This document shows, piece by piece, positions 1-63,910 of a stretch of 64,000 bases of DNA. Below the pieces are notes generated by a model, which worked only from the letters and a program-made list of their open reading frames with translations, had not been told where the DNA came from and ran no database searches. A program made the translations under genes and the position numbers. The DNA is taken from the IMG/VR virus record IMGVR_UViG_3300027710_000017, positions 1 through 64,000 of that record; one strand, given 5' to 3'. Each line of letters opens with the position of its first letter. The stretch's first letter is position 1. The stretch is from a virus.

Positions 1-756
1 GCCACCCATAAAGACAAGGTTATTATAATCTGGTAGAAGTCTTGACCTAACGTCGTGCATAAAGTCAGTTAGCCTTAGTTCATACACTAGCTGAACTGCA
101 GCGGCTATATCAAATTTTGCTTGCTCGTCAATTTCTTCTTCCCAGTCGTGGATTCCTTTGTGGTAATTGTACTTCTGCTGTTTAGTATTTGGGAAATACT
201 GTAGAACTTTTTTATAGTACCTGTTTGCATCTCCGTATCCAGCCATGCCCATTAAAATATATTCGTGCTCATTTGGCTTTAATCCAATCAAGTCTGTGAA
301 GGCAGTATAGAATAATCCGAAGCTAAGTGGGTACTTAATCTCTTTAATTAGTTTTATATCTTCCCCGTCACCAGACCAGACGGTAGAAGTAGAAAATTCT
401 CCGATTGCATCTAGGACTACTATCGCTGCTTTATTAAATGGGCTTGTGTAATATCCAGCGCAAGCATGTGAGTAGTGGTGCTTAAAAGCTTTGTCGTGTC
501 TATGCCTTGGCTTCCAGTCAGCCCTACCTCCATTCAGCAATAACCTTAGTTGCTTTAGCCTTGGCTTTTCGTAGTAAGCTATGGCATCTGGATCTCCAAA
601 CTTTAGGCCATCACCCCAAAGGGCTTTATTTGTATACCAGTCATTTTTTTCTTTGCTATATCTTTCAGCATGACCCGCAAACAAGATTGTATTATTGTCA
701 ATAACGGCTAGGGCCGCATCGTGAGATGTTTCATTAAATCCAAAAATTCTCAACAT
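1..756 (-). CDS. NodU/CmcH-family carbamoyltransferase (partial, 3' end off window)
   Basis: I translated this reading frame by hand; it starts at an ATG overlapping the preceding TAA by one base and runs off the window after 252 codons. The N-terminus reads MLRIFGFNETSHDAALAVID, the hallmark opening of the NodU/CmcH/TobZ carbamoyltransferases. Further on are the HHYSHA motif (roughly residue 110), a VVLDAIGE segment and an LMGMAGYG segment, all in family order within the YrdC-unrelated Kae1-like domain. The family moves a carbamoyl group from carbamoyl phosphate via a carbamoyladenylate to a hydroxyl of a sugar, antibiotic or, in some phages, a hydroxymethylated base. The substrate here is unknown. 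Full family members are about 550-600 residues, so over half may be missing. It is last in a glycosyltransferase and oxygenase operon, which fits a modification role. Confidence 0.88.
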   Translation of the reverse strand, partial: MLRIFGFNETSHDAALAVIDNNTILFAGHAERYSKEKNDWYTNKALWGDGLKFGDPDAIAYYEKPRLKQLRLLLNGGRADWKPRHRHDKAFKHHYSHACAGYYTSPFNKAAIVVLDAIGEFSTSTVWSGDGEDIKLIKEIKYPLSFGLFYTAFTDLIGLKPNEHEYILMGMAGYGDANRYYKKVLQYFPNTKQQKYNYHKGIHDWEEEIDEQAKFDIAAAVQLVYELRLTDFMHDVRSRLLPDYNNLVFMGG

Positions 757-1358
757 TACTCGCTAGCGTATGGGTGCTGTTGTGCTGGCCAAATGCCTCT
801 GTCTACTTCTGGATGGAATTCTGGATCTAGGTATTTGGGAACGCTTGTATGCATATACAAAGCCGTATGCCTTGCCCCAGATGTAACTGTTGTAATTCCA
901 TGTATATATTCTGATCCTGCGCTTGGGAAAAATACAGCAGAGTACTGCCTTGGCTTATACTCAAAATCTTGGTTTGGGAAATATATAATACCACCTTCAT
1001 AATCACTAGGATTATTTAGATAAATTATTGTACTCCACTCAATAAACGGCTCTGGATCCTGAGCATCCATATGAAGATCTCCCTTTGTTCCTGGATTCCA
1101 CCATGAGCCAAAAGCTTTAAATACATAAATAGGATTTACAAACCCATTTAATTCTTTATGAACATCGTTAGATTTGTGACCGTACTTAATTAACAAATCC
1201 ATTACTCTCTTGTTGTATGGAAATGCTGTTCCTCCATACCTTTCAGAGTAGTAGTCTGGGTATGGGTTTCTCTCAGATGGATTCTTTTGCTCTTGAATAA
1301 GAGTCTCAGCATCCTCTGGTGTTATAAAATTGTCAATGATAGTAATTCTGTGTGTCAT
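756..1358 (-). CDS. 2OG-Fe(II) oxygenase, prolyl-4-hydroxylase-like
   Basis: A 200-residue single-domain protein with the double-stranded beta-helix signature of 2-oxoglutarate/Fe(II) dioxygenases. The iron ligands are visible as H96-x-D98 and the distal H153, followed by R163 as the likely 2-oxoglutarate-binding arginine. The GGIIYFP strand and FFPSAGSEYIHGI segment are typical of prolyl-hydroxylase-like members. The enzyme would couple 2-oxoglutarate decarboxylation to hydroxylation of an unknown substrate (protein side chain, base or sugar). It sits 12 bases after the glycosyltransferase and overlaps the carbamoyltransferase start by one base. A hydroxyl installed here could in principle be the acceptor for the neighbouring transferases; that is inference. 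Confidence 0.85.
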   Translation of the reverse strand: MTHRITIIDNFITPEDAETLIQEQKNPSERNPYPDYYSERYGGTAFPYNKRVMDLLIKYGHKSNDVHKELNGFVNPIYVFKAFGSWWNPGTKGDLHMDAQDPEPFIEWSTIIYLNNPSDYEGGIIYFPNQDFEYKPRQYSAVFFPSAGSEYIHGITTVTSGARHTALYMHTSVPKYLDPEFHPEVDRGIWPAQQHPYASE

Positions 1359-1370
1359 CTTTTCTCCTTT

Positions 1371-2180
1371 TTAATATATTGACTTTACGTTAGAAATAAA
1401 CTTTCTAGAGTCTATATCGTTTATCTTAAGACTATTTGGATTGTAAGAGACATCATCATTTGCATAAGGCAATGGCAAGATTGGGCACTTATCCAAACCA
1501 ATGTACCTCCAAAAACTGCTAGATATGATGTCAAGGACCTTGCCATATTTATGCTCTATAGAAAATGTTTTATACTTATTTTCTAAAGTTCTTTGGTTTA
1601 AGTCTGAACCAAGGCTGCTAGGAGCATTATAAACAGTATAGCCTTTCTCAAAACATCTAAAAGATAATAGCTCGTCCTCGCCAAGATACTTAACATATAT
1701 GGGATAGCTGACTGGCTTTAGCGTTCTGGTCTTTGAAAAAATTAAATTCTTACTTATGATGTTCGTTTTACTAAAGTCATCTGACTTTTCAGACTCTGAA
1801 ATTATTGTAAACAGATCTCTGTTTTTAAAGTACTGTTTTCCTACGCCAGAAACAACAGTCTTATTATCTTTAATAAAATCTATTAAGATATTATCCCAGC
1901 CATCCTTAACCATAATGTCATCTGACAATACTAAAAAGTATTCTGAAGAGCTTTCGTGAATTGTTTTTGACTTGTATTCGCAAGGGCTATTCAGGTAGTC
2001 CCAAAATATATGGTTATAAGATATTTGTGGGCTATCAAACATTTCTTTTCTATCTAAGGGGTGTTGATCGTAAACGTGTATATAAATATCATTACTGGTT
2101 GATGAAATAAGGTTGTCAACAACTTCTTTTAAGAATTTATTCTTGTATGAATAAATAACGGCATCAATCGTTGTCGTCAT
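1371..2180 (-). CDS. Putative GT-A glycosyltransferase (GlcNAc-transferase-like)
   Basis: A 269-residue protein that reads as a small GT-A fold glycosyltransferase. It has an early beta-alpha-beta region ending in VYDQHP (36-41), a YFLVLSDDIMVKDGWD stretch with D87-D88 in the place of the metal-binding DXD motif, and a later GEDE (166-169) acidic motif. These resemble the GlcNAc-transferase family PF11397; I could not test this by search. It would transfer a sugar from a nucleotide sugar to an unknown acceptor (modified base, capsid/tail protein or cell-wall glycan). The start overlaps the preceding gene by 17 bases, indicating translational coupling in the operon. Confidence 0.6.
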   Translation of the reverse strand: MTTTIDAVIYSYKNKFLKEVVDNLISSTSNDIYIHVYDQHPLDRKEMFDSPQISYNHIFWDYLNSPCEYKSKTIHESSSEYFLVLSDDIMVKDGWDNILIDFIKDNKTVVSGVGKQYFKNRDLFTIISESEKSDDFSKTNIISKNLIFSKTRTLKPVSYPIYVKYLGEDELLSFRCFEKGYTVYNAPSSLGSDLNQRTLENKYKTFSIEHKYGKVLDIISSSFWRYIGLDKCPILPLPYANDDVSYNPNSLKINDIDSRKFISNVKSIY

Positions 2181-2931
2181 GGCTTACCTCTGGTGATTTT
2201 TTATTAAATATACCAAAATTCTTTTTTCTCCAGGCAAATTTTTTATAATATCCATAGAGCATAGATCGCCTATTTTCAGCCATGAGCTCGTGTTTATCTA
2301 GCTCTTCGTCCGTATCTATAACCTTTGACTCCCAGTCTTCTCTTTTGAATGGGATTATTTGAAATATTGGCGTACCTTTGGGAATTACACCTCTAAAATT
2401 TCTCTTTAGAAAAAATGCAGTAAAGACTGGAAGGCCCCAAATATCCGACTCTACAATTCCAGACAGGGTATAAAACGGAAGGTCGTGCCTGTTCATTGGT
2501 TGTGTAACCAGTACTGAGTATCCTGGGGGAGTTTCGTAATACCAGTTCATTCTCCAGCCATAGTGAATTGGGTGGCAGTTATCTGGAACTGGAACCTCTA
2601 TAGTTGGCCTAGTGTCTACAATCATGACGTCACCTTTCCAGGACAAAACTGGAACTCCGTTTTCATCTAAGTCTACATAAAGGTCATCCTCTAAGACATA
2701 CTGGTATCCAGCTGTTAGCGCATCAAAGAAAGGCATACACATTTTTGTAGCCACCTGAGCTCCATCAGTTCCTAAAGAGTTCTGAGGGTTTAGCGTCTTG
2801 TCACTATTAGACTTTTCAAACTTTGCTAAGCTTCTATACCATTCTGGGACATGCTTTGTCGCTGGCTGTGGGGCAGTCAGCCTGTCTCCAGGCATTCTAA
2901 AGGATGGAATAAAATTAATTATGTTTGACAT
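2164..2931 (-). CDS. Conserved protein, paralogue of the next gene upstream (DUF6065-like)
   Basis: Function unknown. The 255 residues align by eye with the 240-residue product of 2931-3653. Both share a KxVPxWY segment near the N-terminus, a CMPxFDxxTAGY segment, a Y-P-G-Y-S segment before a long beta-rich region, and PKGTP/RGTP-(I/L)-xQ(I/V)IPxKRxxWES near the end. The general pattern recalls the DUF6065 family and, more loosely, the beta-barrel of dUTPase/dCTP deaminase-like folds, but neither is demonstrated. The gene abuts its paralogue with a one-base start/stop overlap, so it arose by tandem duplication inside the operon. The C-terminus is highly charged. Confidence 0.6.
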   Translation of the reverse strand: MSNIINFIPSFRMPGDRLTAPQPATKHVPEWYRSLAKFEKSNSDKTLNPQNSLGTDGAQVATKMCMPFFDALTAGYQYVLEDDLYVDLDENGVPVLSWKGDVMIVDTRPTIEVPVPDNCHPIHYGWRMNWYYETPPGYSVLVTQPMNRHDLPFYTLSGIVESDIWGLPVFTAFFLKRNFRGVIPKGTPIFQIIPFKREDWESKVIDTDEELDKHELMAENRRSMLYGYYKKFAWRKKNFGIFNKKSPEVSHDDND

Positions 2932-3653
2932 TAATTATATTCTTTCTTTGATCTAAAGATAAGTTTGTATCCATTTGCAAACATGCTACGTAGCTTAAGT
3001 CTCTGGTTTGATAAAGCTTTCTTTGAGTCTTCTGCCTCTGCAATCTCGGACTCCCAGCTATCTCTCTTGATTGGAATGACCTGTACTAATGGAGTACCAC
3101 GCTTAATTATACCCTTAAATCCCTTTTCTACAATAAAAGATAGGTGGCCTTCTGTAATAAACTTGTCAGAGTCGACTAAAGCTGGTATTGCAGTTAGTGG
3201 ATAGGTGTCTCTGTGAACTGGATTTAAGAATAGTGTGCTATATCCAGGATCTGTCTTCATATACCAGAACGGCATCACCCTGAACAATGTTTCATGTTGA
3301 CGACTTTTGTCTATTGGGTATTCATCATATTGTTGTTTTTCATGGGAAGAAAACATGTCTGCCTGGAATTGCTTAATTGCAATTGGTATAGACCATGTTA
3401 ACTTTTCTGGATCAGTGGCGTCTAGATAAACGTCGCATGGCATAGTGATCATATAGCCAGCTGTCATTATATCAAATACTGGCATACACCTTTTAACAGT
3501 CGAAGTAGAGTAGCCTTTTGGAAGAGTCTCGGAATCATTTACTGTACCCTTTTGCTTTTTGTACCAATCTGGAACAAACTTTACTGCTGGCTCTGGCGGA
3601 TCTGTATATGCTGAGGTACTTTCACTATGTTGATAAAATTTAATCTTTGGCAT
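2931..3653 (-). CDS. Conserved protein, first of a tandem paralogous pair (DUF6065-like)
   Basis: Function unknown; 240 residues, clearly homologous to the downstream product of 2164-2931. Shared landmarks are KFVPDWYKK, RCMPVFDIMTAGY, DPGYSTLFLNP and GTPLVQVIPIKRDSWES. The pattern of a GY-x-L-P strand, a buried aromatic stretch and a late GTP-x-x-Q-x-IP motif suggests a compact beta-barrel. Retention of two divergent copies suggests distinct substrates or a heteromeric complex. It overlaps the preceding gene by 14 bases and shares a base with the following start, so expression is likely coupled. Confidence 0.6.
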   Translation of the reverse strand: MPKIKFYQHSESTSAYTDPPEPAVKFVPDWYKKQKGTVNDSETLPKGYSTSTVKRCMPVFDIMTAGYMITMPCDVYLDATDPEKLTWSIPIAIKQFQADMFSSHEKQQYDEYPIDKSRQHETLFRVMPFWYMKTDPGYSTLFLNPVHRDTYPLTAIPALVDSDKFITEGHLSFIVEKGFKGIIKRGTPLVQVIPIKRDSWESEIAEAEDSKKALSNQRLKLRSMFANGYKLIFRSKKEYN

Positions 3654-4323
3654 AAAACTCCTTAATTCCTAAGTCTATTATAGCATTCCTAGGAATTATC
3701 ATATCGTAAACAGCAGAGGGCTTTTTAGCCTTTCCAAACTCATGGTCTGCCATGTGGCTGCCACTTTTCCTAAATCTAAAAGGTATCATGAATGGCTCTA
3801 GGTATTTTGTTTCTTCAGGAATTTTAACACAATTCCTTGTAGTTTCAAATACTTTAAATGCAGACTCTTCTTCTGGAACTACAAATCTAACTTCACAGCC
3901 CGAATCAATTATCCAAGGAGTATACGCCACAAACATATCATCAAAACACTCTGAGTCCAAATCTGCAACATAGGACGATTTGTAGAATTGTCGCAACCAC
4001 GGTCTATCTAGAAACTTTCTTTCTTTTTTATTTACTAGAATAAAAACTTCTGCATGGCTATATTGCCTCAGTCTAATAAAATTATCATCAATGCTAATTA
4101 GTTTTGGTGCTGGATAAAGAGCTTCTGCGTATTTGTTAATTGGTTTTATAATGCTGCTTTTATATTTTTCTGATGATGAAATTTTTTGAAAATTTAACCA
4201 CTTCTCTGGAACTCTAGACTTAAAGGAAATTTCTACAAAGTTTGGATCATAAGATGAATTCCATATGCCAAAATCATAGTCAGTGTTATTAAGTATGTCT
4301 GGCTTATCCACGATTACCAGCAA
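3640..4323 (-). CDS. Hypothetical protein in modification operon
   Basis: I do not recognise this 227-residue protein. It has no signal peptide or membrane segment. The composition is aromatic- and charge-rich, with a PEKWLNFQK stretch near the N-terminus that faintly recalls the PEWY element of the two downstream paralogues. A central segment lists YTPWIIDSGCEVRFVVPEEESAF. The late SGSHMADHEFGKAKK region has clustered His residues that could bind metal, but no known motif is formed. It overlaps its neighbours on both sides (20 and 14 bases), so it belongs to the same translationally coupled operon as the methylase and the glycosyltransferase. Confidence 0.5.
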   Translation of the reverse strand: MLVIVDKPDILNNTDYDFGIWNSSYDPNFVEISFKSRVPEKWLNFQKISSSEKYKSSIIKPINKYAEALYPAPKLISIDDNFIRLRQYSHAEVFILVNKKERKFLDRPWLRQFYKSSYVADLDSECFDDMFVAYTPWIIDSGCEVRFVVPEEESAFKVFETTRNCVKIPEETKYLEPFMIPFRFRKSGSHMADHEFGKAKKPSAVYDMIIPRNAIIDLGIKEFYAKD

Positions 4324-5017
4324 TCAAGATAGAGATAAAGTCTGACTGATCTATATTCATATCAAAGATTTTACTAATAATTTTTGATACGCTGCCCCTA
4401 GCTATCGTTTGATTTGACATGCTAACATTTATACCAATTCCAACTTGACAATACTTGCCAAAAACAGTTTCAATATCTTTTAAAATTTCTAGAACCTTGG
4501 AGTTGTCATCTCTCCTATTTTTAATTAAGAATAAGTAGGGCATCTTACTTTCTTTAACCCAAACGAGCCTTTCTATCCGAATGTCTGAAGACTCTCCTGG
4601 AATATCATCTTCGAATATAAATGATTTTCCACCTATCCCAAGTATAGCAGGCAGGGCTGAAATAATCGATGGCCCTGGAATTACTTCTACTGGCAATCCT
4701 TCCTCATGAGCAATAACAATTATTTTGCCGCCTGGGTCTGCTATGCTAGCCATCCCGTCATCTGGACATATCAAAACATCTTTATTGCTTTTAAGTGCCT
4801 CAATAACTTTTAAAATTATTGGATCTTCGAGCTCTTCATCCATTGGGGCATAATACTCAATAACAGATCCAGACGGAACAATGGCCAGGTCTTTGCAAAG
4901 ATTGTCAAACAGATGCTTATTTTCTACTAAGACAATGTCAGAATCTCTTATCGCAGACATCATCCTGGGGCCAACGTCTAGCCTATTACCAATGTCTACT
5001 CCACCAACAATTAACAT
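4304..5017 (-). CDS. RsmI-like tetrapyrrole-methylase-fold SAM methyltransferase
   Basis: A 237-residue protein of the tetrapyrrole (corrin/porphyrin) methylase superfamily, closest in motif order to RsmI, which 2'-O-methylates C1402 of 16S rRNA. Visible landmarks are the early GNRLDVGPRM loop (10-19), VENK (31-34), PDDGMASIADPG (85-96) matching the SDAGTPxISDPG motif of RsmI, and IPGPS (113-117) followed by an FEDDIP segment like the FxGFLP of RsmI. The C-terminal helix-rich region of bacterial RsmI is reduced. The start at 5017 has a GAAGG ribosome site and lies 16 bases after the tRNA-Thr 3' end, so its mRNA is probably released by tRNA processing. The substrate (ribosome, tRNA, or a small molecule) is not shown. 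Confidence 0.75.
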   Translation of the reverse strand: MLIVGGVDIGNRLDVGPRMMSAIRDSDIVLVENKHLFDNLCKDLAIVPSGSVIEYYAPMDEELEDPIILKVIEALKSNKDVLICPDDGMASIADPGGKIIVIAHEEGLPVEVIPGPSIISALPAILGIGGKSFIFEDDIPGESSDIRIERLVWVKESKMPYLFLIKNRRDDNSKVLEILKDIETVFGKYCQVGIGINVSMSNQTIARGSVSKIISKIFDMNIDQSDFISILIAGNRG

Positions 5018-5032
5018 ATCTGCCTTCCTTCG

Positions 5033-5104
5033 AGCCTCCTGTCAGGATTGAACTGACGACCTACGCATTACAAGTGCGTTGCTCTACCACTGAGCTAAAG
5101 AGGC
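5033..5104 (-). tRNA. tRNA-Thr(TGT)
   Basis: Cloverleaf folded by hand: acceptor GCCTCTT pairs with AGGAGGC, the anticodon stem ACGCA/TGCGT encloses CTTGTAA, and the T arm has GTTCAATC. Anticodon TGT reads ACA and wobble Thr codons. No CCA is encoded. It is the last of the five tRNAs in the transcript. Confidence 0.95.
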
Positions 5105-5105
5105 G

Positions 5106-5178
5106 TACTCCCAACGGGATTCGAACCCGTGCTACCGCCGTGAAAGGGCGACGTCCTAGGCCACTAGACGATGAGAGC
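5106..5178 (-). tRNA. tRNA-Glu(TTC)
   Basis: Acceptor GCTCTCA pairs with TGGGAGT using the G-U first pair common in tRNA-Glu; anticodon loop CTTTCAC gives TTC; T loop GTTCGAATC is canonical. Separated from tRNA-Thr by one base. No encoded CCA. Confidence 0.95.
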
Positions 5179-5182
5179 AGTG

Positions 5183-5256
5183 CGACCCTGACCAGACTTG
5201 AACTGGCGACCTCCTCCGTGACAGGGAGGCGCTCTAACCAACTGAGCTACAGGGCC
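5183..5256 (-). tRNA. tRNA-Asp(GTC)
   Basis: Acceptor GGCCCTG pairs with CAGGGTC, discriminator G; D arm AGCTCAGTTGGTTAGAGC; anticodon loop CTGTCAC gives GTC; T loop GTTCAAGTC. No encoded CCA. Confidence 0.95.
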
Positions 5257-5311
5257 TGGTGTCCACTTTTATCCCTTCTCTCAGCGGGAGTGGTGTAGAC
5301 TAAACCATTAG
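5257..5311 (-). repeat. tRNA spacer with repeated hairpin element (copy 1)
   Basis: This spacer and the one at 5383-5435 are related: both contain a TTTTATCC run, a GGAGTGGT segment and end in CCATTAG just before the next tRNA. In both, GGT...ACC ends can pair to form a small stem, with the inside bases differing. They could be tRNA-processing signals or debris of a duplicated tRNA unit. Confidence 0.45.
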
Positions 5312-5382
5312 AGCGAATGGAGAGAATCGAACTCTCACCGTCAGTTTGGAAGACTGAGGCACTACCACTATGCAACATTCGC
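5312..5382 (-). tRNA. tRNA-Gly(TCC)
   Basis: Acceptor GCGAATG pairs with CATTCGC, discriminator T; anticodon stem TCAGT/ACTGA with loop CTTCCAA gives TCC, which reads GGA; T loop GTTCGATTC. No encoded CCA. Confidence 0.95.
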
Positions 5383-5435
5383 ATTGCCCATTTTTATCCT
5401 TATACCCTTAGGAGTGGTATGGGCCACACCATTAG
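5383..5435 (-). repeat. tRNA spacer with repeated hairpin element (copy 2)
   Basis: Shares the TTTTATCC, GGAGTGGT and CCATTAG landmarks with the spacer at 5257-5311. The inner GGTATGG/CCACACC segments form a stem with one G-U pair. Confidence 0.45.
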
Positions 5436-5507
5436 CTCCCCTCCGTGGATTCGAACCACGAACCGACGAGTTAACAGCTCGTTGCTCTGCCATTGAGCTA
5501 GAGAGGA
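5436..5507 (-). tRNA. tRNA-Asn(GTT)
   Basis: Acceptor TCCTCTC pairs with GAGGGGA (one G-U), discriminator G; anticodon stem ACGAG/CTCGT with loop CTGTTAA gives GTT; T loop GTTCGAATC. First tRNA of the cluster, 32 bases after the protease stop. A weak GCCC/GGGC hairpin lies between them (5512-5528). Confidence 0.95.
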
Positions 5508-5539: not shown

Positions 5540-6577
5540 TTAATTATTATATACTGCGTCAAGCTGGTTTGCAAGATCTCTAAGAGTCTTTGCTAGCTCG
5601 GATGCAGCTGTTCTGTCTAGAGTCTCAGTAGAGGCAGCGTTGGTACGAATCTTTTGAATCAAAGATGTCGAACTGTCTAGTGATCCTAGCAAAAGTTGTC
5701 TTGAGGATACAGTGGATGTTGTTGCTGGTGTTTCAGCCACTACCCCCACAACCTTAGAGACTGTAGGCTCTGGAGCTTTTGCTTTAACTGTAGGAACTGA
5801 AGCTACTGCAGCAGTCACCGTTGCTACTGATGTTGTAAAGCCAACCATAAATGGGTTAGGTCCTGTAGTAGTAATCGCAAAAGAGTCATGCAATCCCTGA
5901 ATAGCAGTTCTAATAGACTTCAAGCTCTTGCTAGAGTATGTATTGCCAGAAAGAACCAGGTCAGACCGCTTAGTACTGCCTGCAAACTGAGTAGAGCCAA
6001 CTGCAACAGAGTTTGAAATACAAGCTGGATAGTCAATTCTATCTCCGCTTCCATAGTTTCCAGCTGAGGCATAAAAATCAATCTTGGATGCCTGCAGTGC
6101 AGCAATTGCACTAACAACATTGTTATGGGTTGTTGAAATACTTACCCCTGGAGATGACGGCGTACAGCTTGAACCGTTTCCAGCATTGTAAGAAAATGAC
6201 ACTGCTTTGATATTATACTTAGCTGAATTAGCAATGACCCAATTAAGGGCATTAGATAGCTGAATTCCAGTAATTACGCCAGTCTTAGTCGTTCCTGCTT
6301 CAATCAAAACCAACGGAACTTCTGCGTTATTTGATCTAGCAATATCTGCCATAACTGTGCCATGATTAAATGCCTTAAACTGTGAAGTGCTTCTTGGCGT
6401 TGGTGTTGAGCTACACTCTGAAGGTGCAGCTAGACAAATCTCCGTCACTTCTCCACTAATTAGAGTGGATTCAAAATTTACATCGATAATTGCAACGGCC
6501 CCAGCAGTGTCTGCCTGAGCTGGAACAATTCCAACAAGTGCAAGGATTGTGGCAAATGCGATAGCTAGTTTCTTCAT
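5540..6577 (-). CDS. Secreted subtilisin-like serine protease (S8 family)
   Basis: A 345-residue protein with a clear Sec signal peptide: MKK, a hydrophobic stretch to residue 18, and a likely AQA-D cleavage after A22. The mature part carries the subtilase residues in order: D32 in AIIDV, H72 in NHGTVMADI, oxyanion N174 in ASAGNYG, and S250 in GFTTSVATVTAA, which replaces the usual GTSMAxPxVAG. The region after about 260 is Ala/Thr/Val-rich linker followed by a helical C-terminus, which could attach the enzyme to the cell surface or another protein. A secreted protease is unusual in a phage. It might cleave host surface protein, process a phage-encoded exported protein, or aid lysis. Expressed from the consensus promoter at 6814-6842 with the 65-residue gene ahead of it. 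Confidence 0.82.
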   Translation of the reverse strand: MKKLAIAFATILALVGIVPAQADTAGAVAIIDVNFESTLISGEVTEICLAAPSECSSTPTPRSTSQFKAFNHGTVMADIARSNNAEVPLVLIEAGTTKTGVITGIQLSNALNWVIANSAKYNIKAVSFSYNAGNGSSCTPSSPGVSISTTHNNVVSAIAALQASKIDFYASAGNYGSGDRIDYPACISNSVAVGSTQFAGSTKRSDLVLSGNTYSSKSLKSIRTAIQGLHDSFAITTTGPNPFMVGFTTSVATVTAAVASVPTVKAKAPEPTVSKVVGVVAETPATTSTVSSRQLLLGSLDSSTSLIQKIRTNAASTETLDRTAASELAKTLRDLANQLDAVYNN

Positions 6578-6842: not shown

Positions 6843-7555
6843 CTATTTTTGAGTGACTTATAGTAGCCTAACCACTTACATAGATACAAGGCAAGCCTTT
6901 CATCATCGATAGCAGTTAAAGAGGGATGGTCGATAGAGTTTTTTAGCAAAAATTCTCGCCATCTTTTAGCAACTTTATGTCTATTAGTATTAAGATACTC
7001 TTCTAGCAAAAATTCTGAATCATTTTTTAGGAATTCTTGTTTTAGAAATAACCCCTCAATCGACCATGGCCAGTATGTTTCTGTTTTTATTCTTTTAAAA
7101 ATGTTAGACATATCCGCTAGCTTCCAAGAGTCAAGCTGGAGCTCATAGTGATCTGGGAAAAAACAATCATATTTTACATCAGTTTCATAGGTTGTGGCAT
7201 TTCCTGAAATAATTTTAATTTTATGATTTTCTGGATTACTTTCTAAAAAAGCTTTTTCTACATCTGAATTTAGCTCAATAACTGTTACGCTAGAAACGTT
7301 TTCTTTTTGTGCAAGAGCGATTGGAAGAATTCCAAAACCCAAACCAGTTAATAAAACATCTCCATGAGCCAAGTCATACTGGGAATAAAAAGTATCTTTT
7401 GGATGAATGAAGTCTTTGTCCGTTTGCATCCAACCTATGCCATTATGATATAAAAAATATGCCTGCCTTTCAGGCTCAAAAATTATTTCTACTTCTCCAT
7501 AAACACCTGGAACAATATTTGGCATTGTTGCATCATATATTGTTTTAAGATTCAA
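6839..7555 (-). CDS. SAM-dependent methyltransferase-like (spermidine synthase-like Rossmann) protein
   Basis: A 238-residue protein with a Rossmann methyltransferase motif I, VLLTGLGFGILP (67-78), followed by SSVTVIELNSDVEKAF with acidic E94 at the end of strand 2, as in class I SAM-dependent enzymes and spermidine synthase-like proteins. The N-terminal YHNGIGWMQTDKDF segment resembles the small beta domain in front of the spermidine synthase fold. The later part, with a HYELQLDSW stretch, lacks a diagnostic catalytic motif, so the substrate cannot be named. It has its own consensus promoter (7624-7652) and an AAAGGG site ahead of the ATG. Confidence 0.65.
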   Translation of the reverse strand: MNLKTIYDATMPNIVPGVYGEVEIIFEPERQAYFLYHNGIGWMQTDKDFIHPKDTFYSQYDLAHGDVLLTGLGFGILPIALAQKENVSSVTVIELNSDVEKAFLESNPENHKIKIISGNATTYETDVKYDCFFPDHYELQLDSWKLADMSNIFKRIKTETYWPWSIEGLFLKQEFLKNDSEFLLEEYLNTNRHKVAKRWREFLLKNSIDHPSLTAIDDERLALYLCKWLGYYKSLKNS

Positions 7556-61133: not shown

Positions 61134-61748
61134 CTAGAATCCTCTGATCTCCCAGCTGTCCCACTCTACTTTGTCGTAGTCAACAGATGGGAACCAGGAC
61201 TGACCCTTAAGTCCCATCCAAGCTTGAGAAAGATACATCGTTCCGTCTGTTACTGGAGTGATTTTTCTCATATCTTCCATGTTACCTTCTTCAAAGATAA
61301 CCAAGTCTCCAGGAGAATAATCTATTTCTGACTCTTCTTGAGTGTTTCCGTTTACAGCCATAAGCTTTCCGCCAGAGAAGTTGTTATTCCAAATAACATA
61401 GCCAACAAGGGTATGTGCTGGCCTGTTGATATCTGTTTGGGCTGGCTCCCCAAATTCAGGAATATACCTTGCGATGTAGTGCTTTGAAAACATTGGTGGC
61501 AAATATTCTAAATTTTTGTTGTTTTCTTTAACTGACTCATAAAATCTTTTAGAATACTTAGAAAAAATTTCTAGCATCTCATCAGAAAACTCTCCCCTTG
61601 TCCTAATGTGGAAGCTTACTGAATCTTGACTAAAAAGGTTGTCGTGAAGTGGTGGATGATTTTCTTTTGTATGAAAGTGAGAAGACTTTGCATACTCATA
61701 TACAGCCTGAGCATCTTTAGAAGAAATAAAATTCTTTATTAATATCAT
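61134..61748 (-). CDS. 2OG-Fe(II) oxygenase-fold protein lacking iron ligands
   Basis: A 204-residue protein with the same fold outline as prolyl-hydroxylase-like 2OG-Fe(II) oxygenases: ARYIPEFGEPAQTDINRP, then GYVIWNNNFSGGKLMAV, DYSPGDLVIFEEGN and RKITPVTDGTMYLSQAWM. The position expected for HxD reads Q104-T105-D106 and that of the distal His reads R161. So two of three iron ligands are replaced and catalysis is unlikely; it may be a pseudo-enzyme used for binding. It follows the small Cys/His gene with a four-base overlap. Confidence 0.6.
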   Translation of the reverse strand: MILIKNFISSKDAQAVYEYAKSSHFHTKENHPPLHDNLFSQDSVSFHIRTRGEFSDEMLEIFSKYSKRFYESVKENNKNLEYLPPMFSKHYIARYIPEFGEPAQTDINRPAHTLVGYVIWNNNFSGGKLMAVNGNTQEESEIDYSPGDLVIFEEGNMEDMRKITPVTDGTMYLSQAWMGLKGQSWFPSVDYDKVEWDSWEIRGF

Positions 61749-63202: not shown

Positions 63203-63910
63203 TTAGATTGGATATCTTCCGCCACCCCAAGGGGCGAATCCGAATGGTGAGAATCCGAATGGTGAGAACCCGAATGGTGAAAACCCGAATGCACCAAAGG
63301 GGGCAAATGAGAATGTTGTGGTAATGCTATTAGAAGCAGCTGAAGTTCCAGAGTTTCCATTAGCATTAGTTGCAATAACAGTATATGTCTGAGCTGTTCC
63401 CTGCTCTTGAGTAACATCAACAGTCGTGCTTGCGGTTGTGCCAGTTTTGCTGTCATCAGATGCCCAGGTGTAGCCAGTAATAGCCTTTCCACCATTTGCT
63501 GGGGCTGTCCATTCAACTCTATCGACACCTGCTGATGGGGAAGATGCAGTTGGTGCTGAAGGAGTCGCAGGAACAGTAGTAGCTGTAACGGATGCTGAAG
63601 CTGAAGAAGCTGGGCTTGTTCCATCAGCATTAGCTGCTGTTACAGTAAATGTATAGGCAGTATCTGACTGCAGTCCCTCTACTGTAAGTGGAGACGATGA
63701 TCCAGTTGCTGTAAATCCGCCTGGAGATGATGTTACGGTAAACGAAGTGGCAGCATTTGGACCCTGAGCAGTAAAGGTTACTGTTGCAGCACCATTGTTA
63801 AATGCCCTAGAGGTTCCAACATCTGTAGCGGTTCCAATTAAAGGAGCCGCTGGTGCCAGATGGTCGTTCTGTGCAAGAGATTTCTTTCCCGCTCTTTTAT
63901 TTGCTGCCAT
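63203..63910 (-). CDS. FnIII-domain structural protein with FG-repeat C-terminus
   Basis: A 235-residue protein with two fibronectin type III-like domains (about 20-112 and 113-198; for example GFTATGSSSPLTVEGLQSDTAYTFTVTAANADGTSP). The C-terminus is a repeat of Ser-Pro-Phe-Gly-Phe units ending APWGGGRYPI. It lies in the tail-fibre region, so it is probably a virion appendage. The Phe/Gly-rich tail could mediate self-association or contact with the host surface. Confidence 0.72.
   Translation of the reverse strand: MAANKRAGKKSLAQNDHLAPAAPLIGTATDVGTSRAFNNGAATVTFTAQGPNAATSFTVTSSPGGFTATGSSSPLTVEGLQSDTAYTFTVTAANADGTSPASSASASVTATTVPATPSAPTASSPSAGVDRVEWTAPANGGKAITGYTWASDDSKTGTTASTTVDVTQEQGTAQTYTVIATNANGNSGTSAASNSITTTFSFAPFGAFGFSPFGFSPFGFSPFGFAPWGGGRYPI
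63237..63296 (-). repeat. 15-nt tandem repeat (4 units) encoding SPFGF
   Basis: Four consecutive 15-base units AATCCGAATGGTGAG, the first two identical and the last two with small changes, encode the Phe/Gly repeats of the FnIII protein. Slippage could vary copy number. Confidence 0.85.

Follow-up and report, generated by a model that had tools for sequence, protein, structure and literature searches.

Background

Large phages carry many 2-oxoglutarate-Fe(II) (2OG) oxygenases, carbamoyltransferases and halogenases of unsettled purpose, which have been guessed in print to serve, among other things, in the repair of DNA, the sensing of nitrogen, the making of nucleotides or secondary metabolism (PMC3037559, PMC9146016, PMC7824862). 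In jumbo cyanophages such genes form carbamoyltransferase/halogenase/2OG clusters, which were read as devices of capsule decoration or secondary metabolism (PMC7824862), and T4-like cyanophages encode a carbamoyltransferase, PrnA and multiple 2OG oxygenases (PMC3037559); in the cultured cyanophages P-RSM4 and S-SSM5 the carbamoyltransferase and several 2OG genes lie just beyond the tail-fibre genes. Here we describe an operon that combines such enzymes with two paralogous proteins of the DUF6065 family, at positions 1-5017 of IMGVR_UViG_3300027710_000017, a 93,084-base tailed-phage record whose first 64,000 nucleotides, beginning at the very end of the record, constitute the window analysed here. 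We propose, with a probability of about 0.4, that the operon specifies a tailoring pathway for the phage's own tail-fibre and receptor-binding proteins, in which the DUF6065 proteins act as accessory factors rather than as dUTPases.

The published cyanophage clusters are the nearest known kind, and the operon shares with them a NodU-type carbamoyltransferase and several 2OG oxygenases. It is nevertheless a variant: it comes from another phage lineage, its carbamoyltransferase forms a clade of its own, and it includes the DUF6065 pair along with GT-A-like and RsmI-like proteins, whereas the amino-acid halogenase and HemK-like methylase of the cyanophage clusters were not found among the operon products by Pfam searches or in the open reading frames (ORFs) read in its relatives. 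As these clusters were already in print, the candidate new pathway of a first-pass annotation of this DNA is not entirely novel in type. The 2OG-Fe(II) groups of the HTVC023P-type pelagiphages (PMC9599517) are comparable in that several non-orthologous 2OG oxygenases stand close together in one phage, but the text on them mentions no carbamoyltransferase, and DUF6065 was not looked for there.

Organization and conservation of the operon

The seven ORFs all lie on the minus strand at intergenic distances of -20, -14, -1, -17, +12 and -1 bases, and their order is kept in related phages, which confirms the tightly coupled operon described in the first-pass annotation (Table 1). The contig end cuts the operon within the carbamoyltransferase; in the relatives it runs on with the full gene (470-483 amino acids), followed by a second 2OG oxygenase, OG2. 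The complete gene order is common to the related contigs L003, L004 and L005, and the order is also kept in L006, whose contig begins there, and in L007, the RsmI-like gene being undetected in both. A relative with 35% identity (L026), in which the RsmI-like gene was likewise not detected, keeps the uncharacterized gene, DUF6065 a, DUF6065 b, the glycosyltransferase, OG1 and OG2; as it does so without the carbamoyltransferase, this enzyme is an optional component of the gene set. The ratio of non-synonymous to synonymous substitution rates (dN/dS) of the operon genes against L003 and L004 is 0.008-0.18, denoting strong purifying selection, with DUF6065 b as the most constrained gene (0.008-0.019). 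The operon is thus genuine, and its members are more than chance ORFs.

A cluster of five tRNA genes (5032-5507) lies on the same strand 15 bases upstream of the operon, and beyond it, likewise upstream, is a gene for a subtilase-like secreted protein (5540-6577, minus strand; judged by eye, with no Pfam match), a homologue of which is found in the relatives. In L004, in-frame TAA codons are seen at 7165, 8247 and 5673, in the RsmI-like, DUF6065 a and subtilase-like genes respectively, and may represent assembly or sequencing error, decay or recoding. Near the operon in the relatives there is also an adenosine 5'-phosphosulfate (APS) kinase domain fused to a nucleotidyltransferase-like domain (L005:14667-15434, L007:14235-15002); the same fusion in L010 (5628-6383) adjoins a sulfotransferase and an Asp hydroxylase. 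The phage record further encodes terminase, portal, capsid and minor-tail proteins and a class I ribonucleotide reductase (RNR).

Table 1. The operon and two further features of the window, with the evidence for each
Feature	Position	Strand	Evidence or remark
NodU/CmcH-type O-carbamoyltransferase, N-terminal 252 aa	1..756	-	PF02543 1.2e-25; truncated by contig end
2OG-Fe(II) oxygenase OG1	756..1358	-	phrog_61 9e-14; H96, D98, H153, R163 invariant in relatives
Probable GT-A-like glycosyltransferase	1371..2180	-	PF00535/PF11397 below cut-off; invariant S86-D87-D88
DUF6065-family protein b	2164..2931	-	phrog_7084 2.5e-34; PF19541 below cut-off
DUF6065-family protein a, probable dUTPase-like fold	2931..3653	-	phrog_7084 2.5e-46; AlphaFold and Foldseek
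Uncharacterized protein (listed with a TTG start), perhaps a third and divergent DUF6065-like copy	3640..4323	-	Profile comparison
RsmI-like tetrapyrrole-methylase-family protein	4304..5017	-	PF00590 1.1e-14; RsmI 5hw4 4.6e-11
Candidate additional 2OG oxygenase encoded by this phage	61134..61748	-	PF13640 3e-4, below cut-off; no phrog match
fn3-like structural protein, FGFSPF repeats at end; speculative candidate substrate	63203..63910	-	Similar repeats in L028

Enzymes of the operon

The identities first given to the carbamoyltransferase, the HxD...H oxygenase and the RsmI-like methylase were borne out by family and structure searches. The part of the carbamoyltransferase present in the window contains the Carbam_trans N domain and is 96% identical to that of L004 over 252 residues, and the complete proteins of the relatives contain both the N and C domains (the latter with GRxEFGPRALGNRS) and match novobiocin carbamoyltransferase (9s2t, 1e-60), GdmN and TobZ. 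The enzyme is therefore of the NodU/CmcH type and is predicted to transfer a carbamoyl group to a hydroxyl. OG1, with 76-88% identity across the relatives and an invariant HxD...H...R signature, finds its best PDB match in prolyl 3-hydroxylase 1 (8e-4), whereas OG2, which keeps the same signature, is closest to prolyl 4-hydroxylase (3itq/5hv0, 2e-5, as against 0.05 for TET). By motif and closest solved relatives, both resemble prolyl hydroxylases, with peptidyl-proline as a putative substrate. The active-site residues of OG1, OG2 and the carbamoyltransferase are invariant.

The GT-A-like protein gave no match in PDB and only sub-threshold matches in Pfam (PF00535, E=0.002; PF11397, 8e-4); its SDD motif is invariant, and the earlier label is retained here in the form of a probable glycosyltransferase. 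The methylase, whose closest solved relative is RsmI, is probably peripheral to the pathway.

The DUF6065 proteins and a probable dUTPase-like fold

The two paralogous proteins noticed at first reading belong to a single family (phrog_7084/DUF6065), though copy b alone matches the Pfam model PF19541, at 23.7 bits against a cut-off of 26.6. The family was not named in the literature searched, and its sequence profile found no match in PDB. An AlphaFold model of copy a, computed from 20 relatives (pLDDT 81.6, pTM 0.76), retrieved dUTPases or dCTP deaminases as all 50 of its top 50 Foldseek matches in PDB (probability.66-1.0, E 0.0057-0.05). When the model was compared with viral protein models, the first named matches were dUTP diphosphatases, preceded by unnamed proteins that mostly resemble its own family. 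In addition, a profile of 136 DUF6065 sequences aligns to dUTPases at motif 3 (V-D-[ST]-D with I-D-S-D) and motif 4 (G-x-x-x-x-Q) with a score of 32.2, while the highest-scoring of 100 column-shuffled profiles reached 22.5 and none of five unrelated families exceeded 22.0. These matches, of moderate strength, suggest a dUTPase/dCTP deaminase-like fold.

Departures from the superfamily are also evident. Motif 2 (PRSS) and the glycine-rich motif 5 are missing from the DUF6065 alignments read, the catalytic Asp of motif 3, present in copy a and most relatives, is replaced by Glu in copy b, and the proteins possess extra N- and C-terminal parts. Because motifs 2 and 5 are missing, the paralogues are probably not dUTPases. 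A role as stand-in for a missing dUTPase was considered and is not general, as other phages with DUF6065 also carry a true dUTPase. The substrate-binding or accessory role suggested for the pair in the first-pass annotation is compatible with the fold proposed here.

The product of 3640..4323, previously listed as unknown, gave no match in the family searches. A profile comparison with DUF6065 found nothing when few sequences were aligned, and with 136 sequences gave scores of 31.7-34.0 in the matching C-terminal region, above controls with a shuffled dUTPase profile and unrelated families (at most 22.5). It may thus be a third, divergent DUF6065-like copy, although its own AlphaFold model, of low confidence (pLDDT 69.6), gave a weak cupin-like match and does not show the dUTPase fold.

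Contextual analysis of DUF6065 genes

Enzymes of this kind and tail-fibre genes also adjoin DUF6065 in phages unrelated to the present one. The commonest neighbour clusters of DUF6065 genes are 2OG oxygenases, found in 15-16 of 51 locus groups, the identity of the commonest cluster being confirmed by Pfam; 16 PF13640 matches lie within 1.5 kb of DUF6065 as against 4.8 expected under random placement (hit-level p < 1/5000). In the marine podophages L068 and L112 a split carbamoyltransferase, 2OG genes and DUF6065 occur together within the tail module. Other loci combine DUF6065 with a sulfotransferase, an Asp-hydroxylase and APS kinase (L009/L010) or with tryptophan-halogenase-like genes (L056). 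Tail-fibre genes of the glycine-rich, collar or fn3 types adjoin DUF6065 at many loci, and in L028 the gene 9 bases upstream has repeats similar to FGFSPF. As a general signature of a substrate, the FGFxPF repeats were rejected, being present in just two phages. A further observation concerns the protein of phrog_17480 encoded in the tail-fibre region of the present phage (71130-71858 of the record, minus strand; L020:7130-7858): its relatives (26-28% identity) adjoin DUF6065 pairs in L056, L061, L062 and L063, which suggests that it is another member of the DUF6065-linked protein set.

The same phage has additional 2OG genes inside its tail-fibre region (70073-70657 and 76650-77246), and two ORFs (78056-78715 and 78712-79335) that match a phrog annotated as 'ferrochelatase' are read by us as 2OG-like from their motif. 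A collagen-like fibre protein is encoded at 74860-75564 (PF01391, 3e-7), and a protein with two long proline tracts, a possible hydroxylation substrate, lies between tail genes at 71886-72521 (minus strand).

A further setting is provided by the DNA replication module of L012 (helicase, primase, DNA polymerase and RecA), which includes two DUF6065 genes (L012:5264-8714). Outside viruses, DUF6065 proper is encoded in the chromosomes of alphaproteobacteria (23 of 190 over the cut-off), Caulobacter among them, and no clear partner was found in the bacterial neighbourhoods examined.

Predicted pathway and alternative explanations

The scheme that we favour, in which we infer the substrate, the order of the steps and the DUF6065 role, is as follows: OG1 and OG2 would hydroxylate a polypeptide, the GT-A-like enzyme could attach a sugar, and the carbamoyltransferase would cap a hydroxyl of the sugar or of a side chain. 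The most likely substrates would be the phage's own tail-fibre and receptor-binding proteins, with the DUF6065 paralogues serving in substrate recognition, as a scaffold or as a fibre chaperone. Hydroxylation followed by glycosyl or carbamoyl transfer thus survives from the first-pass annotation as the best reading, while DNA, one of the targets it had named, is unlikely, because homologues of thymidylate synthase (TS) and C5-methylase were not found, the residues of TS-linked carbamoyltransferases are lacking and the oxygenases resemble prolyl hydroxylases. There is precedent for a DNA target in a phage NodU-family carbamoyltransferase acting on 5-hydroxymethylcytosine (5hmC; PMC8670742), and it could be argued from the RNR genes nearby and the dUTPase-like fold of DUF6065 that bases of the DNA, once hydroxylated, receive a carbamoyl or glycosyl group while the dUTPase-fold proteins manage nucleotide pools. 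However, the TS family (PF00303) was not found in five records (that of the window and its relatives), nor a C5-methylase homologue in the window's record or its relatives, these records being fragments, so that the absence is not final. In a carbamoyltransferase tree the window clade is parted from two TS-linked phage enzymes by a long branch with 100/100 support. MetaGPA identified TobZ W408, G421 and R423 as discriminating residues of 5hmC carbamoyltransferases (PMC8670742); with these positions placed by motif spacing rather than direct alignment, and two TS-linked enzymes compared, the window clade does not show the differences seen in the latter, reading GPRALGNR with the GNR arginine kept, as against GPRALGST and GPRALCNT, in which it is lost. 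Together with the far better match of OG2 to prolyl 4-hydroxylase than to TET and the missing dUTPase motifs, this renders DNA hypermodification highly improbable. Modification of phage or host tRNA or rRNA by the RsmI-like methylase, the oxygenases and the carbamoyltransferase with its Kae1-like fold would accord with the adjoining tRNA genes and the RsmI homology; it is very unlikely, given that the RsmI-like gene was not detected in the more distant relatives, and in view of the location of relatives of the other operon genes at tail-fibre genes and the lack of a recognised RNA-binding domain.

The chief competing explanation is decoration of host surface glycans, or synthesis of a small molecule derived from a sugar or amino acid, for superinfection exclusion or competition during infection. 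This is how the jumbo-cyanophage clusters were interpreted (PMC7824862), and it fits the antibiotic-tailoring function of the solved carbamoyltransferase relatives, the sulfotransferase, APS kinase and glycosyltransferases of related clusters, and the UDP-glucose dehydrogenase and glycosyltransferase genes next to the HTVC008M carbamoyltransferase. We consider it somewhat unlikely, as the oxygenases resemble peptidyl-prolyl hydroxylases, several types of phage have such clusters next to their tail-fibre genes and a sugar-nucleotide pathway was not recognised in the operon. Alternatively, DUF6065 proteins could be tail-fibre chaperones or tip components and the enzymes unrelated cargo of a variable fibre region. 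They are often encoded directly downstream of fibre or glycine-rich genes, and in the HF1-group haloviruses DUF6065 stands alone, without enzymes, a few genes from receptor-binding fibre genes; proteomics of HF1-type viruses identified only four major virion bands, which does not settle whether DUF6065 is present in virions. This explanation is doubtful in view of the strict co-linearity with enzymes in the window clade, the repeated 2OG association and the occurrence of DUF6065 in replication regions and bacterial chromosomes. Several observations also tell against the scheme favoured here. The operon of the window clade adjoins tRNA and RNR genes rather than tail fibres; some DUF6065 genes adjoin RNR or replication genes (S-RIM4, L028, L012), and others, in the chromosomes of alphaproteobacteria, lack an obvious partner. 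The 2OG association is modest at the level of contigs (p=0.018), which are related and have clustered matches, so that it is supportive only; the Foldseek E-values to dUTPases are 0.006-0.05, none in PDB being at or below 0.001; and the glycosyltransferase falls below the Pfam cut-offs.

Implications

With its compactness and conservation, the fold proposed for its unnamed members and the low likelihood of DNA modification, the operon offers a small, testable set. A wider proposal, which we regard as unlikely, is that the DUF6065 proteins, often paired and perhaps in trios, are dUTPase-fold proteins whose catalytic site has been turned to recognition. As a class not described before, they would steer an interchangeable assortment of tailoring enzymes (2OG oxygenases, halogenases and transferases of glycosyl, carbamoyl or sulfo groups) onto the tail fibres of bacterial and archaeal viruses. 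If fibre proteins are indeed what is modified, phage-host specificity would gain a new layer through the chemical decoration of receptor-binding proteins.

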